Shown here: positions 25,581-57,525 of the stretch, piece after piece
Layout: each line of letters begins with the position of its first letter
How positions within the stretch are numbered: position 1 is the first letter of the stretch
Source of the DNA: Natrialba swarupiae
GTDB taxonomy: Archaea; Halobacteriota; Halobacteria; Halobacteriales; Natrialbaceae
Reading direction: 5' to 3'
NCBI RefSeq assembly: GCF_008245225.1
Contig: NZ_VTAW01000023.1
Coordinates: forward strand, 1-57,525
DNA length: 57,525 nucleotides
Position numbers and translations under genes: made by a program
Notes under the pieces: model-generated
Told to the model about the DNA's origin: nothing
What the model saw: only the letters and a program-made list of their open reading frames with translations
The model's database searches: none

Positions 25581-25683
25581 CGGACGAGTTACTCTCCGTC
25601 ACTGCCGGCCCACCCGCGACCTGTCTGCGGGTTCGCCGGGAGATCGGAACAGCAATCCGTCCCAGTCATCGCAAACCATATCA
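25581..25683. repeat. Family A palindromic intergenic repeat (A4)
   Basis: The core arms CCGGCCCACCCGC and GCGGGTTCGCCGG enclose a nine-base loop (GACCTGTCT), and the outer part reads GGAACAGCAATCCGTCCCAG. The right end, CATCGCAAACCATATCA, supplies the stop codon (TCA, read as TGA) of the minus-strand DUF502 gene. The repeat lies between two minus-strand genes, immediately 3' of DUF502 and upstream of the MFS gene. Confidence 0.75.
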
Positions 25684-30218: not shown

Positions 30219-30983
30219 ATGCACGTTTCGACGGGGCGACGCCGATTGCTCGCCTCCTGTGGGGCCGGAGTCGCGTTCGCGTTCGCCGGATGTATCGAAA
30301 CCACGATCGACGACTCGAGTTCCGAAGCGATCGGTGACGACGCTGGAGACGGAACGACGGCTGGAGCCGACGGCGACGATCCCGCGGCGTCGTCCGACGG
30401 CGGGCACAATCCCGAGACAGATACCGAAAACGCCCAATCCGAGGACGGGGAGGACGCGCTTTCCGTGGATGGTGCCGAGTACGAGTCGATCGACGGCGGG
30501 CCGCCGATCGGAGAGCTCGTCGAGTGGGCTGACTCCTACGTCATCGACATCGAGATGCGCAGAGCCAGTGCGGGGGATTTCGAGGGGACCGGCAGGCAGG
30601 TCGTTCACCAGGGGGAGTTTCACTACGAACTCTCGATGGACGACGGAAAACTCGAGATCTATCAGTTCGATTCGACCGAGTACTACGTCTTCGGCGGCCA
30701 CTGTCGCGAACGGGAGCCGACCGAGCCCGACCTCCACGTGCTCGAGCCCGAGAGACGACCCGGTGAGGTGTTTCCGGAGACGGAGCCGATCGCGAGGACG
30801 ACGATCGACGGCTCGGACGTCTACGTCTACGAGATGCCGGCGTCACCCGAGAACGAGTACTGGTATCTCAGCACGTCGACGGGCTATCCGGTTCGGTTCA
30901 GATCCCAGCGAGTCACCGCAGAGTTTCGCTCCTGGGACGAGACTGAGTCGATTTCGCCGCCGGAGATGGAGTGTGAGAGCTGA
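30219..30983 (+). CDS. Lipoprotein of unknown function
   Basis: This 254-residue protein has an Arg-rich Tat-like signal (TGRRRLLASCGAGVAFAF) and a lipobox FAGC at about 25-28. A long acidic, low-complexity linker follows (to about 95). The folded part has strands and conserved aromatic residues, including YHYELSMDD-like and YQFDSTEYYVFGGHCRE, and resembles haloarchaeal outer-surface lipoproteins with LolA-like shape. No precise family is recognised. The ATG at 30219 directly precedes the signal. The TGA stop abuts repeat A5, which separates it from the convergent receiver-kinase gene. Confidence 0.7.
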   Translation: MHVSTGRRRLLASCGAGVAFAFAGCIETTIDDSSSEAIGDDAGDGTTAGADGDDPAASSDGGHNPETDTENAQSEDGEDALSVDGAEYESIDGGPPIGELVEWADSYVIDIEMRRASAGDFEGTGRQVVHQGEFHYELSMDDGKLEIYQFDSTEYYVFGGHCREREPTEPDLHVLEPERRPGEVFPETEPIARTTIDGSDVYVYEMPASPENEYWYLSTSTGYPVRFRSQRVTAEFRSWDETESISPPEMECES

Positions 30984-31066
30984 GACGGATTGCCGTCCCG
31001 ATATACCGGTGCAACCGCCACACGGGTCGCGGGTGCGCCGGAACTGACTGACAGGAAACCGTATCA
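30984..31066. repeat. Family A repeat spanning an entire convergent intergenic gap (A5)
   Basis: The repeat begins at the base after the lipoprotein TGA and ends in the TCA that is the stop of the opposite gene, so nothing else lies between the two genes. The outer arms are GACGGATTGCCGTCCC and GACAGGAAACCGTATCA (imperfect), and the inner arms are CCGGTGCAACCGC and GCGGGTGCGCCGG. It is the clearest complete copy of the family. Confidence 0.8.
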
Positions 31067-35592: not shown

Positions 35593-36720
35593 ATGACCGT
35601 CATCGAGTCCGTCCACGCGGACCACGGGGCGACCTTCGGCGAGCGCGGCGGCCGGAAAATCGTCGAGCACTTCGGCCGACCCGAACGAGCACACCGCGCG
35701 GTTCGAAACGGCGTTGGCCTCATCGAGGCCGTCTACGGCGTGATCGTCGTCGAAGGCGACGACCGCCGCGAGTACGTTGACAACGTCGTTTCCAACCGCG
35801 TGCCAGCCGAGGACGGCCAGGGCTGTTATGCGCTCGTGTTAGGCCCACAGGGAGGGATCGAGGTCGAACTCTACATCTACAACGCCGGCGAGCGACTTCT
35901 ATTGTTCGTCCCGCCCGAGACGGCCCAACCGCTCGCCGAAGACTGGTCCGAGAAGGTGTTCATCCAGGACGTCGAGATCACCGTCGCGACCGACGAGTAC
36001 GCGATCTTCGGCGTTCACGGCCCCAAGGCAACGGAGAAGATCGCGAGCGTCTTAAACGGAGCCGCCTCCCCCGACGAGCGGCTCTCGTTCGTCCGCGGGA
36101 CGATGGGCGACGCCGGCGTCAGCGTCGTCCGCACGGACGCGATCACCGGCGAGGAGAGCTACGAGGTGATCTGTGGCGTCGACGAAGCCACGGACGTCTA
36201 CGACGTCCTCCTGAATCAGGGACTGAACGCCGCTCCGTTCGGCTATCGCACCCTCGAGAGCCTCGCACTCGAGGCTGGCTCGCCGCTTTTCGACACCGAA
36301 CTCGAGGGACGGATTCCGAACGTGCTCGGACTCCGAACCGCACTTGACTTCGAGAAGGGCTGTTACGTCGGCCAGGAGGTGGTCTCCCGCGTCGAGAACC
36401 GCGGCCGTCCGAGCAAACGACTCGTCGGGCTCACGCTCGACACCGACGCGACGCTCGAAGCCAGTGAGAGACCGACGGACCAACCGGTTCCGGAGGCGGG
36501 TGCGGCCGTCTTCGACGGCGACTCGAGCGTCGGCGAGGTCACGCGAGCGGGGGTAAGCGAACTGCTCGAGGTGCCGGTCGCGCTCGCCGTGGTCGCCTAC
36601 GACGTAGAGAACGATCAGTTGTCGGTTCGCGTCGACGGCGAGGAACTCCCGGCGGTCCGAACGGACCTGCCGTTCGTCGACGGCTCGGATCGGTCCGGTC
36701 GGCTCCCGACTTACGAGTGA
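35593..36720 (+). CDS. ygfZ: YgfZ/GcvT-like folate-binding Fe-S maintenance protein
   Basis: This 375-residue protein resembles aminomethyltransferase GcvT but carries the KGCYVGQEVVSR signature of YgfZ/IBA57 proteins, which use folate to support iron-sulfur enzymes. The N-terminal tetrahydrofolate fold (GLIEAVYGVIVVEGDDR and following) and C-terminal barrel are complete. True glycine cleavage T proteins lack the Cys motif, which favours YgfZ. ATG at 35593 is the only well placed start. The TGA stop is immediately followed by repeat A7. Confidence 0.85.
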   Translation: MTVIESVHADHGATFGERGGRKIVEHFGRPERAHRAVRNGVGLIEAVYGVIVVEGDDRREYVDNVVSNRVPAEDGQGCYALVLGPQGGIEVELYIYNAGERLLLFVPPETAQPLAEDWSEKVFIQDVEITVATDEYAIFGVHGPKATEKIASVLNGAASPDERLSFVRGTMGDAGVSVVRTDAITGEESYEVICGVDEATDVYDVLLNQGLNAAPFGYRTLESLALEAGSPLFDTELEGRIPNVLGLRTALDFEKGCYVGQEVVSRVENRGRPSKRLVGLTLDTDATLEASERPTDQPVPEAGAAVFDGDSSVGEVTRAGVSELLEVPVALAVVAYDVENDQLSVRVDGEELPAVRTDLPFVDGSDRSGRLPTYE

Positions 36721-36885
36721 GCCGGGTTGCTGTCCCGATCTCCCGGCGCAATCGCCCTAGTGGTTTGGCAAGCCTGCACTGCAGGGTCGACTCGAACCAC
36801 ACCACCGAATTCGACCCTGCGGTCGACGCTTGTCGGAGTACTAGGGGTCGCAGGTGCGCTGGAACTGACTGACAGTAAACCGTAC
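36721..36885. repeat. Family A repeat interrupted by a family B element (A7)
   Basis: The left half, GGGTTGCTGTCCCGATCTCC then CGGCGCAATCGCC, begins right after the ygfZ stop. The right half is GGGGTCGCAGGTGCGC, then GGAACTGACTGACAGTAAAC and CGTAC. Joined, they match copy A5. The 86-bp element B1 separates them at the position of the loop. About 95 bases of unassigned sequence follow before the CorC-type gene. Confidence 0.75.
36758..36843. mobile_element. Family B element, MITE-like (B1)
   Basis: An 86-bp element with imperfect terminal inverted repeats: TAGTGGTTTGGCAAGC at the left, and GCTTGTCGGAGTACTA (reverse complement TAGTACTCCGACAAGC) at the right. The centre, CTCGAACCACACCACCGAAT followed by TCGACCCT, is shared with B2 and B3. 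It is bordered on both sides by CTAG, a possible 4-bp target duplication, and lies in the loop of repeat A7. It has no coding capacity. Confidence 0.7.
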
Positions 36886-36980
36886 GAGACGGTCCGGTGT
36901 CCGTCAGTTTGAGCGCGACAGTGCAAAACGGCGTCCCAGAACGGTGGGACGAAAGGTGTCCCGATGCGATCGGAGCACGG

Positions 36981-45371: not shown

Positions 45372-45833
45372 ATGGACGATAGCGAGCAGTTTTCGGTCGA
45401 CACGGTTCTCGCGCCGGTCGACGGGAGCGACGAGTCCGCCACCGCCGTCGAGTACGCCATCGCAATCGCCGATCGGTACGATGCCTCCGTCCACTCACTG
45501 TACGTTCTCGGCCACGGAGTCGTTCGCGGGATAGACGTCGGAACCGTCGAGGAGACGGTCGTCGCGGAGAACACCCAAGGGTTTTTCGACGACATCAGCA
45601 GCGTCGCCGAGAACGCAGGCGTCCCGCTGTCGACGTCGGTCGACGACGGCTTCTCACAGAGTCGAAAAACCCGCCACCCCGGCAACGTCGTCCTCGATAC
45701 CGCCGACGAGATCGATGCCGATTTCATCGTCCTTCCACGCGAGCCGGTAACCGACGCCGCCTCGGCAGAGGTTCTCGAGAAGGTCGCCGAATACGTCCTC
45801 TCGTACGCGAGCCAGCCCGTCCTTTCGGTCTAG
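45372..45833 (+). CDS. Universal stress protein, non-canonical
   Basis: This 153-residue UspA-fold protein starts MDDSEQFSVDTVLAPVDGSD. The C-terminal ATP-binding glycine motif is degraded (ADFIVLPREPVTDAASAEVL, with no G-2X-G), so it may not bind ATP. The TAG stop is also the first three bases of element B2, directly joined to the coding frame. It is the divergent neighbour of the ATP-binding-type UspA gene. Confidence 0.8.
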   Translation: MDDSEQFSVDTVLAPVDGSDESATAVEYAIAIADRYDASVHSLYVLGHGVVRGIDVGTVEETVVAENTQGFFDDISSVAENAGVPLSTSVDDGFSQSRKTRHPGNVVLDTADEIDADFIVLPREPVTDAASAEVLEKVAEYVLSYASQPVLSV

Positions 45834-45916
45834 TACTTCGACAAGCGTCGACTGCAGAGTCGACTCGAACCACACCACCGAATTCGACCCTCCAGTGCAG
45901 GCTTGCCGAAGCACTG
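45831..45916. mobile_element. Family B element, MITE-like (B2)
   Basis: An 86-bp element with the imperfect inverted termini TAGTACTTCGACAAGC and GCTTGCCGAAGCACTG. The shared centre CTCGAACCACACCACCGAAT is in the same orientation as in B1. Its first TAG is the stop of the stress-protein gene. A family A copy (A8) follows 34 bases downstream. Confidence 0.7.
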
Positions 45917-45950: not shown

Positions 45951-46032
45951 CCGATACGGTTTCCTGTCCGTCAGTGCCGGCGCAGCCGCGACCCCCATGG
46001 CGGGTGGACCGGGAGGCCGGGACAGCAATCCG
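45951..46032. repeat. Family A palindromic repeat (A8)
   Basis: Reads CCGATACGGTTTCCTGTCCG, then TCAGTGCCGGCGCAGCCGCG, a loop, and CGGGTGGACCGGG, ending GGGACAGCAATCCG. Inner arms CCGGCGCAGCCGC and GCGGGTGGACCGG pair with two mismatches. Position: after B2, before the convergent acetyltransferase gene. Confidence 0.75.
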
Positions 46033-46069
46033 TTCGAGTCGATGAAAACGCCTTGCAACGGGGATCGGT

Positions 46070-48636: not shown

Positions 48637-48734
48637 TGATACGGTCTGCGATGACTGATACGGTTTCCTGTCCGTCAGTGCCGCCACAGCCGCGACCCGT
48701 AGCGGGTGCGCCGAGATATCGGGACGGCAATCCG
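48637..48734. repeat. Family A palindromic repeat, longest copy (A9)
   Basis: Starts TGATACGGTCTGCGATGACT and then GATACGGTTTCCTGTCCGTC, so the terminal motif is doubled. The core arms GCCGCCACAGCCGC and GCGGGTGCGCCG flank a short loop, and the right end is GGGACGGCAATCCG. It lies in the convergent gap between the AAA gene and the membrane gene at 48741-49556. Confidence 0.78.
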
Positions 48735-48740
48735 CATGAA

Positions 48741-51184: not shown

Positions 51185-51265
51185 CAGGGTCGAACTCGGT
51201 GGCATGGGTCGAATTCGGTGGTGTGGTCCGAGTCGACTCTGCAGTCGACGCTTGTCGAAGTACGA
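51185..51265. mobile_element. Family B element, reversed and truncated (B3)
   Basis: On the minus strand it reads TCGTACTTCGACAAGCGTCG, then ACTGCAGAGTCGACTCGGAC and CACACCACCGAATTCGACCC, matching B2 from its left terminus. The other terminus is replaced by a second, diverged copy of the CACCGA-TTCGACCC motif. It lies between convergent genes, 21 bases after the PhnP-like stop. Confidence 0.65.
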
Positions 51266-57374: not shown

Positions 57375-57525
57375 GCCAACCTGCTCAGAGAGATCGTAGA
57401 CGTGGGTTGTGATGAGGTTTGGGAGAACGAGCGCACCCCGACACCCGCTCCGCATCCGGGTAGTCGTCGGCAATCGCTTGCATACAGCCGATCCATTCAC
57501 TGGTTCGCCGTCGTTCCGTCACATG
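57375..57525 (-). pseudogene. IS630-family transposase remnant
   Basis: On the minus strand one frame reads HVTERRRTSEWIGCMQAIAD then DYPDAERV. After a frameshift another gives ALVLPNLITTHVYDLSEQVG. Intact IS630 transposases have this order, with the second aspartate in VLDNLNTH. Here the Asp is Pro and the His context is altered, so it is dead. The remnant runs off the window end. The 130 bases before it (57244-57374) show nothing recognisable. Confidence 0.55.

Follow-up and report, generated by a model that had tools for sequence, protein, structure and literature searches.

The window analysed here is the whole stretch of 57,525 nucleotides that makes up one contig (C30) of the Natrialba swarupiae assembly (4.2 Mb in 99 contigs). 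An open reading frame at 35593-36720 ends in the stop codon TGA (36718-36720), and directly after it, at 36721, begins a short repeat of family A that is interrupted by a palindromic element of family B. The first-pass annotation had described positions 36758-36843 as an 86-bp MITE-like element nested in the loop of a family A repeat, and our analysis confirms that this nested element is real. The 86 bp comprise TA, an 82-bp core and a second TA, with CTAG at both edges. The features in the window relevant to this arrangement are as follows.

25589..25660, minus strand: family A copy, diverged
30981..31064, plus strand: uninterrupted family A copy, used for the empty-site comparison
36721..36884, plus strand: host repeat of family A (80 bp when the insert is removed), interrupted by the family B element; CGA follows at 36885-36887
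36757..36760, no strand: left-edge CTAG, with TA at 36758-36759
36760..36841, plus strand: family B element, 82-bp core, with the L-type end on the left (36760-36779), the R-type end on the right (36822-36841) and the central loop inverted
36841..36844, no strand: right-edge CTAG, with TA at 36842-36843
45833..45914, minus strand: second family B element, loop in the common state, with CTAG at 45830 on one side and CTGG on the other
45954..46033, minus strand: family A copy; the second family B element lies 37 bp away
48658..48737, minus strand: family A copy
51206..51263, minus strand: damaged family B copy, R-end part, 96.6% to the consensus over 58 bp
57446..57525, minus strand: partial gene for a related IS630 transposase, cut off by the end of the contig; 79% to IS positions 771-850

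Removing the insert restores a family A repeat, although not at the exact length first proposed. When 84 bp are excised and one TA is kept, the remainder aligns without gaps over 81 bp with the family A copy at 30984 (84%, 88.7 bits), whereas excision of all 86 bp gives a gapped match of 81.5 bits, indicating that one TA belongs to family A. The proposal of a nested, formerly mobile, MITE-like element is supported, as an 82-bp palindrome sitting in the loop of an 80-bp repeat. The imperfect terminal inverted repeats of about 16 bp that had been described are part of a larger structure: almost the whole 82 bp is palindromic, and the core folds as one near-complete hairpin whose arms are about 35 nt long (-45 kcal/mol when folded as RNA). 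The further copies reported at 45831-45916 (core 45833-45914) and, in damaged form, near 51185-51265 (right part 51206-51263) are real as well. Searching the same genome with the family B sequence returned at least 65 matching stretches (many places matched on both strands; best E 4e-39; 40 of the 64 first-look candidates scored), a copy number far beyond chance, and a D-type query representing a subfamily with another loop returned 28.

Family A, an 80-bp core with TACGG...CCGTA ends, has at least 47 matches in this genome (40 of 177 candidates scored). The three-mers flanking its copies are equal in 32 of 50 cases, compared with 15.4 by permutation, and are mostly TGA or TCA. Given these ends and this agreement, the host of the nested insertion is MITE-like itself, with a TNA duplication. 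Its termini bound none of the 12 PF01609 loci or of three IS630 loci, and a parent element was not found among them. Family A copies often begin right at a stop codon TGA. The gene that lies downstream of the insertion in the window has an orthologue in L080 (genome G016); on its 3' side is a family A copy without family B, and the neighbour there is a different one. A preference of family B for family A loops was ruled out, since only one of 112 joined flanks crosses a family A repeat.

An IS630 element with matching ends

At 82 bp, the family B core is too short to encode a transposase. A search for full-length insertion sequences with such termini, as the first-pass annotation had suggested, succeeded in relatives, where IS copies of about 1215 bp have ends matching those of family B; in N. 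swarupiae itself it recovered pieces at contig ends only. The IS copies of relatives end in TACCGTCCCAACCGTGGAC and TA[GC]CTTCCCAAGCGTCGAG. The R end of the MITE, TACCGTCCCAAGCGTCGAC or TACTTCGACAAGCGTCGAC, is a close match to the IS end, and the L ends match in part (CCTGCAC in the MITE, CCGTGGAC in the IS). The reading frame of the IS is split into two ORFs of 150 and 210 aa in different frames, the second of which matches the NCBIfam IS630 model NF033545 (132.8 bits, cut-off 100) and Pfam DDE_3 (PF13358, 96.9 bits); plasmid records name relatives "IS630 family transposase".

The N. swarupiae genome has four DDE_3 loci. Contigs C34, C36 and C74 each finish with a left end of the IS, stopping at IS base 85, and contigs C31, C47 and C95 start with a right end, inside the right part of the IS. 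This amounts to at least three broken copies, and the simplest reading is that the assembly failed to resolve at least three near-identical IS copies. As contigs C30, C31, C34, C36, C47, C74 and C95 end at shared IS630 positions, the element is a cause of assembly breaks, including the one at the 3' end of the window. The DDE_3 locus on C95 ends in a TAGTACCTTCCCAAGCGTCGA-type repeat, followed directly by a short B-type element sharing the TA. A different IS630 transposase is encoded at L048 and L074 (G000:C18), where an intact 394-codon frame (ORF 922-2055 of L074) lies about 100 bp from a B element, with a D element after it.

Matches to the IS DNA occur in 38 of 149 genomes, and the MITE is found in 36 of 149 haloarchaeal genomes, covering 17 of the 59 genera searched. 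In one genome (G024), the MITE has 19 matches, while neither the DNA nor the protein of the IS has any. The single-contig genome G016 yielded 143 first-look MITE candidates, possibly a recent burst. Spread by viruses or plasmids was considered and rejected: we found no phage record, one plasmid record, and no viral contigs for one 27-base pattern.

The length of the element is close to invariant. Pairing L- and R-type ends over all loci within a length window of 76-86 gave 112 rows, 110 of them L/R, and 104 of these 110 are 82 bp long. In an earlier scan, with a length window of 70-90, 90 of 102 cases had this length, and among the others were true deletions as well as some spurious pairings. 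For 13 further genomes the length window was 60-110, which yielded 68 rows; after five RR or LL rows, mostly alternative pairings, had been dropped, 61 of the 63 L/R elements are exactly 82 bp. Since the loci were picked for their similarity to full-length queries, complete copies are favoured among them. The inner sequences of the 82-bp elements differ widely, indicating that length is conserved and not merely inherited with the sequence.

Target sites, neighbours and empty sites

The view of CTAG as the target held up: it borders both edges in most of the 110 TA-flanked 82-bp copies that lack a family C neighbour. In twelve MITE rows both edges carry T(N)A, with N identical in 11 of these (CTGAG/CTGAG and similar). 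The IS uses the same CTAG or CTNAG targets. Three of its copies (L097, L098, L252) are flanked by CTCAG/CTCAG and others by CTAG, with mixed edges in L099 and L103, and CTGAG lies next to the IS right end on C47 of N. swarupiae.

How much of the target is duplicated is less straightforward. Six copies have matching four-mers other than CTAG (GTAC three times, GTAG twice, CTAT once; permutation mean 0.6), which favours a four-base duplication. The outer right base departs from G while the inner G is intact in 16 of 110 copies (in one of them the base is N) and the reverse occurs in 2, and this imbalance favours duplication of TA, weakening the strict four-base CTAG duplication that we had favoured at first. 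We conclude that T(N)A is duplicated and that the evidence on the outer C and G is split. IS630 elements normally duplicate TA only. Tenzen and Ohtsubo reportedly described in 1991 a preference of IS630 for CTAG with duplication of TA.

The original assignment to the IS5 group, with a four-base duplication of the YTAR type, did not survive. An IS5-group origin would account for CTAG at both edges and for the six matching non-CTAG four-mers, and the Pseudomonas element MITEPsy1, filed as "IS5?", duplicates CTAG or YTAA. However, GTAC does not fit YTAR and CTNAG is no four-base site; the autonomous elements with matching termini encode an IS630 (DDE_3) transposase; and none of the 12 DDE_Tnp_1 (PF01609) loci in the genome is bounded by these termini, with one isolated two-mismatch match in L294. 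We regard this assignment as very improbable. Family B is very probably a non-autonomous MITE of an IS630-family transposon, most likely moved by that transposon's transposase, judging from the shared ends, the shared unusual target and the presence of the IS in the same genome.

Copies often have close neighbours, with 27 of 112 abutting another repeat or an IS. There is a third palindromic family, family C, of about 84 bp with CTATAGTAGCCACTG... ends, whose members often adjoin B elements with a TA in common. It was seen in L043, L056, L059, L064, L008 and L003 and is very abundant in some relatives (G020, G068, G084). In L176 (G019:C1:3113404), the left arm of a B-type element apparently has another palindromic element (TACTATCGGACGTAACTG...) nested in it.

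We searched for empty sites by comparing the joined flanks of eleven insertions (from G019, G020 and G067) with six genomes. This gave one clean orthologous empty site, in another genus, where a single CTAG in G067 corresponds to an element in G019 (CTGG...CTAG), at 96% over 191 bp. In a second case, L179 of G020 against G068 (76%), the insert is absent from the alignment and the junction is diverged. One insertion (L172, L126) is common to G019 and G067. The annotation had also proposed looking for an empty site at 36758 in related strains. A clean empty counterpart of the window site was not found: G001, of the same genus, and G003 have neither A nor B, with unrelated DNA after the upstream gene, which answers that proposal in weak form only. 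Two further loci bear on hot spots. L176 in G019 and L168 in G067 share their right flank and have opposite loops, and we considered but rejected a loop inversion at one and the same site, as the left arms differ enough that one hot spot may have received two insertions. L162 in G001 and L193 in G000 share a right flank and belong to different subfamilies, again suggesting a hot spot.

Covariation and loop inversion in the hairpin

Mirrored positions of the hairpin pair in 70% of cells across 101 unique elements, compared with 18-28% in shifted registers; in 13 other genomes, the values are 71% and 20-30%. Positions 23-33 show double changes, for instance C-G in 53 and A-T in 29 elements at 23/60, and A-T in 43 and T-A in 41 at 24/59. 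Two mismatches are fixed: C-C at 15/68 (97 of 101; 44 of 45 in the other genomes) and G-G at 17/66 (96 of 101; 41 of 45). Such strong covariation in a stable fold could indicate a structured RNA or regulatory hairpin under selection on pairing, with mobility ancient and incidental. Against this, the element shows insertion polymorphism and duplications and shares its ends with an IS; the fixed mismatches fit differences between L and R ends, not a maximised stem; and there are no Rfam matches in 30000-52000. We give this explanation hardly any weight. A palindrome of the REP or IS200/IS605 type, which has no duplication and no terminal inverted repeats, was rejected, as family B has both.

The centre of the hairpin is inverted in many copies. 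Comparing unique elements in 10,585 pairs, we found 270 pairs whose 18-nt loop centres match only when one of them is reverse-complemented; reverse-only and complement-only controls gave no pairs. The arms of all 270 pairs match better in the given orientation. The loop of the window copy is identical, when inverted, to that of L004_1483, with 4 arm differences in 56. Inverted and common loops occur side by side in one genome. Misjoining of palindromes in draft assemblies could in principle produce such copies, but inverted loops are also found in genomes of few contigs (G019, four contigs; G062, one contig). We picked eight groups of inverted copies by hand from the copies compared, and each is nearer to an uninverted relative (0-2 differences of 22; 5 for L066) than to the inverted copies of other groups (at least 4). 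The inversions are therefore best read from these distances as separate events, at least eight in number.

The likely best explanation is polymerase template switching, whose described outcome at inverted repeats is homogenisation of the arms together with inversion of the spacer (PMC8604942; see also PMC8794818). Alternatively, the loops could have been inverted by recombination between copies in opposite orientation or by a transposase acting on the hairpin. With copies many and palindromic, either route could invert a loop, and the coexistence of both loop states in one genome would fit. In L190 and L191, however, the outer mismatches keep to their own arm while the loop inverts, which places the exchange within a perfect repeat of about 10 bp, short for homologous recombination, and the combination of arm homogenisation and spacer inversion is the signature of template switching (PMC8604942). 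We therefore consider these routes unlikely for the loop, and template switching the probable one, with less confidence than we give to the MITE reading. It is a still fainter prospect that the hairpin takes part in movement, with an IS630 transposase of flexible T(N)A target acting on an extruded or single-stranded hairpin. If true, this would explain the 82-bp length, the fixed L/R mismatches and the inverted loops, and inversion would be a by-product of transposition, not a replication error.

Proposed mobilisation and comparison with known systems

We propose that the IS630 transposase, supplied in trans by full-length IS copies in the same cell, would bind the slightly different L and R ends and cut out the 82-bp element, which would then be inserted by cut-and-paste at a T(N)A within CTAG or CTNAG, with T(N)A duplicated. 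Because the element starts with G and ends with C, insertion into CTAG would leave CTAG at both edges, allowing later MITEs and IS copies to land beside it. The copy at 36758 would have been inserted at a CTAG within the loop of an older family A repeat, itself carrying TNA duplications.

Three attributes go beyond an ordinary MITE: the fixed length, the CTAG or CTNAG target with N duplicated, and the arm covariation with frequent loop inversion. Many haloarchaeal genera thus carry an IS630-type MITE of fixed length and CTAG/CTNAG target that keeps a natural record of loop inversion at one palindrome, and the many matched copies with inverted loops should make the rate and mechanism of archaeal template switching measurable. 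CTAG is described as underrepresented in haloarchaeal genomes and as probably recognised by a conserved orphan methyltransferase (PMC6471742), so these elements would target a site that is rare and probably methylated and at the same time add to its number. Our search of open PubMed Central papers yielded no description of a haloarchaeal MITE related to IS630, or of family B itself.

Among known systems, the IS630 family (Tc1/mariner/IS630; IS630, ISY100) is similar in its DDE_3 transposase with an N-terminal helix-turn-helix, its T..A target with a preference for CTAG recorded for IS630, and its imperfect terminal repeats. It differs from the elements described here in that some of the latter occupy CTNAG sites with N duplicated, six have matching non-CTAG four-mers, and the IS frame lies in two ORFs. 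For ISY100 in vitro, a normal TA duplication is given for 34 of 39 insertions (PMC2170065).

The MITEs of Haloquadratum walsbyi and Halobacterium (HqIRS, MITEHsal1/2) likewise lack a transposase and have the termini and duplication type of a full transposon (PMC3119063, PMC10264941). The accessible portions of these two papers name no IS630-derived family, and IS630 is absent from the main text of PMC3119063; family B is 82 bp long and palindromic throughout. SMR-A of H. walsbyi, about 110 bp with inverted ends, resembles family B in inserting inside the palindromes of other repeats, but is described as having no target duplication and no likeness to a transposon (PMC3119063), whereas family B has both; moreover, only 1 of 112 family B copies lies inside family A. 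Template switching in yeast likewise leaves homogenised arms and an inverted spacer. The spacer inversions there altered 2-5 bp in coding genes (PMC8604942), and those described here involve at least eight groups of a mobile element with loops of about 20 nt.
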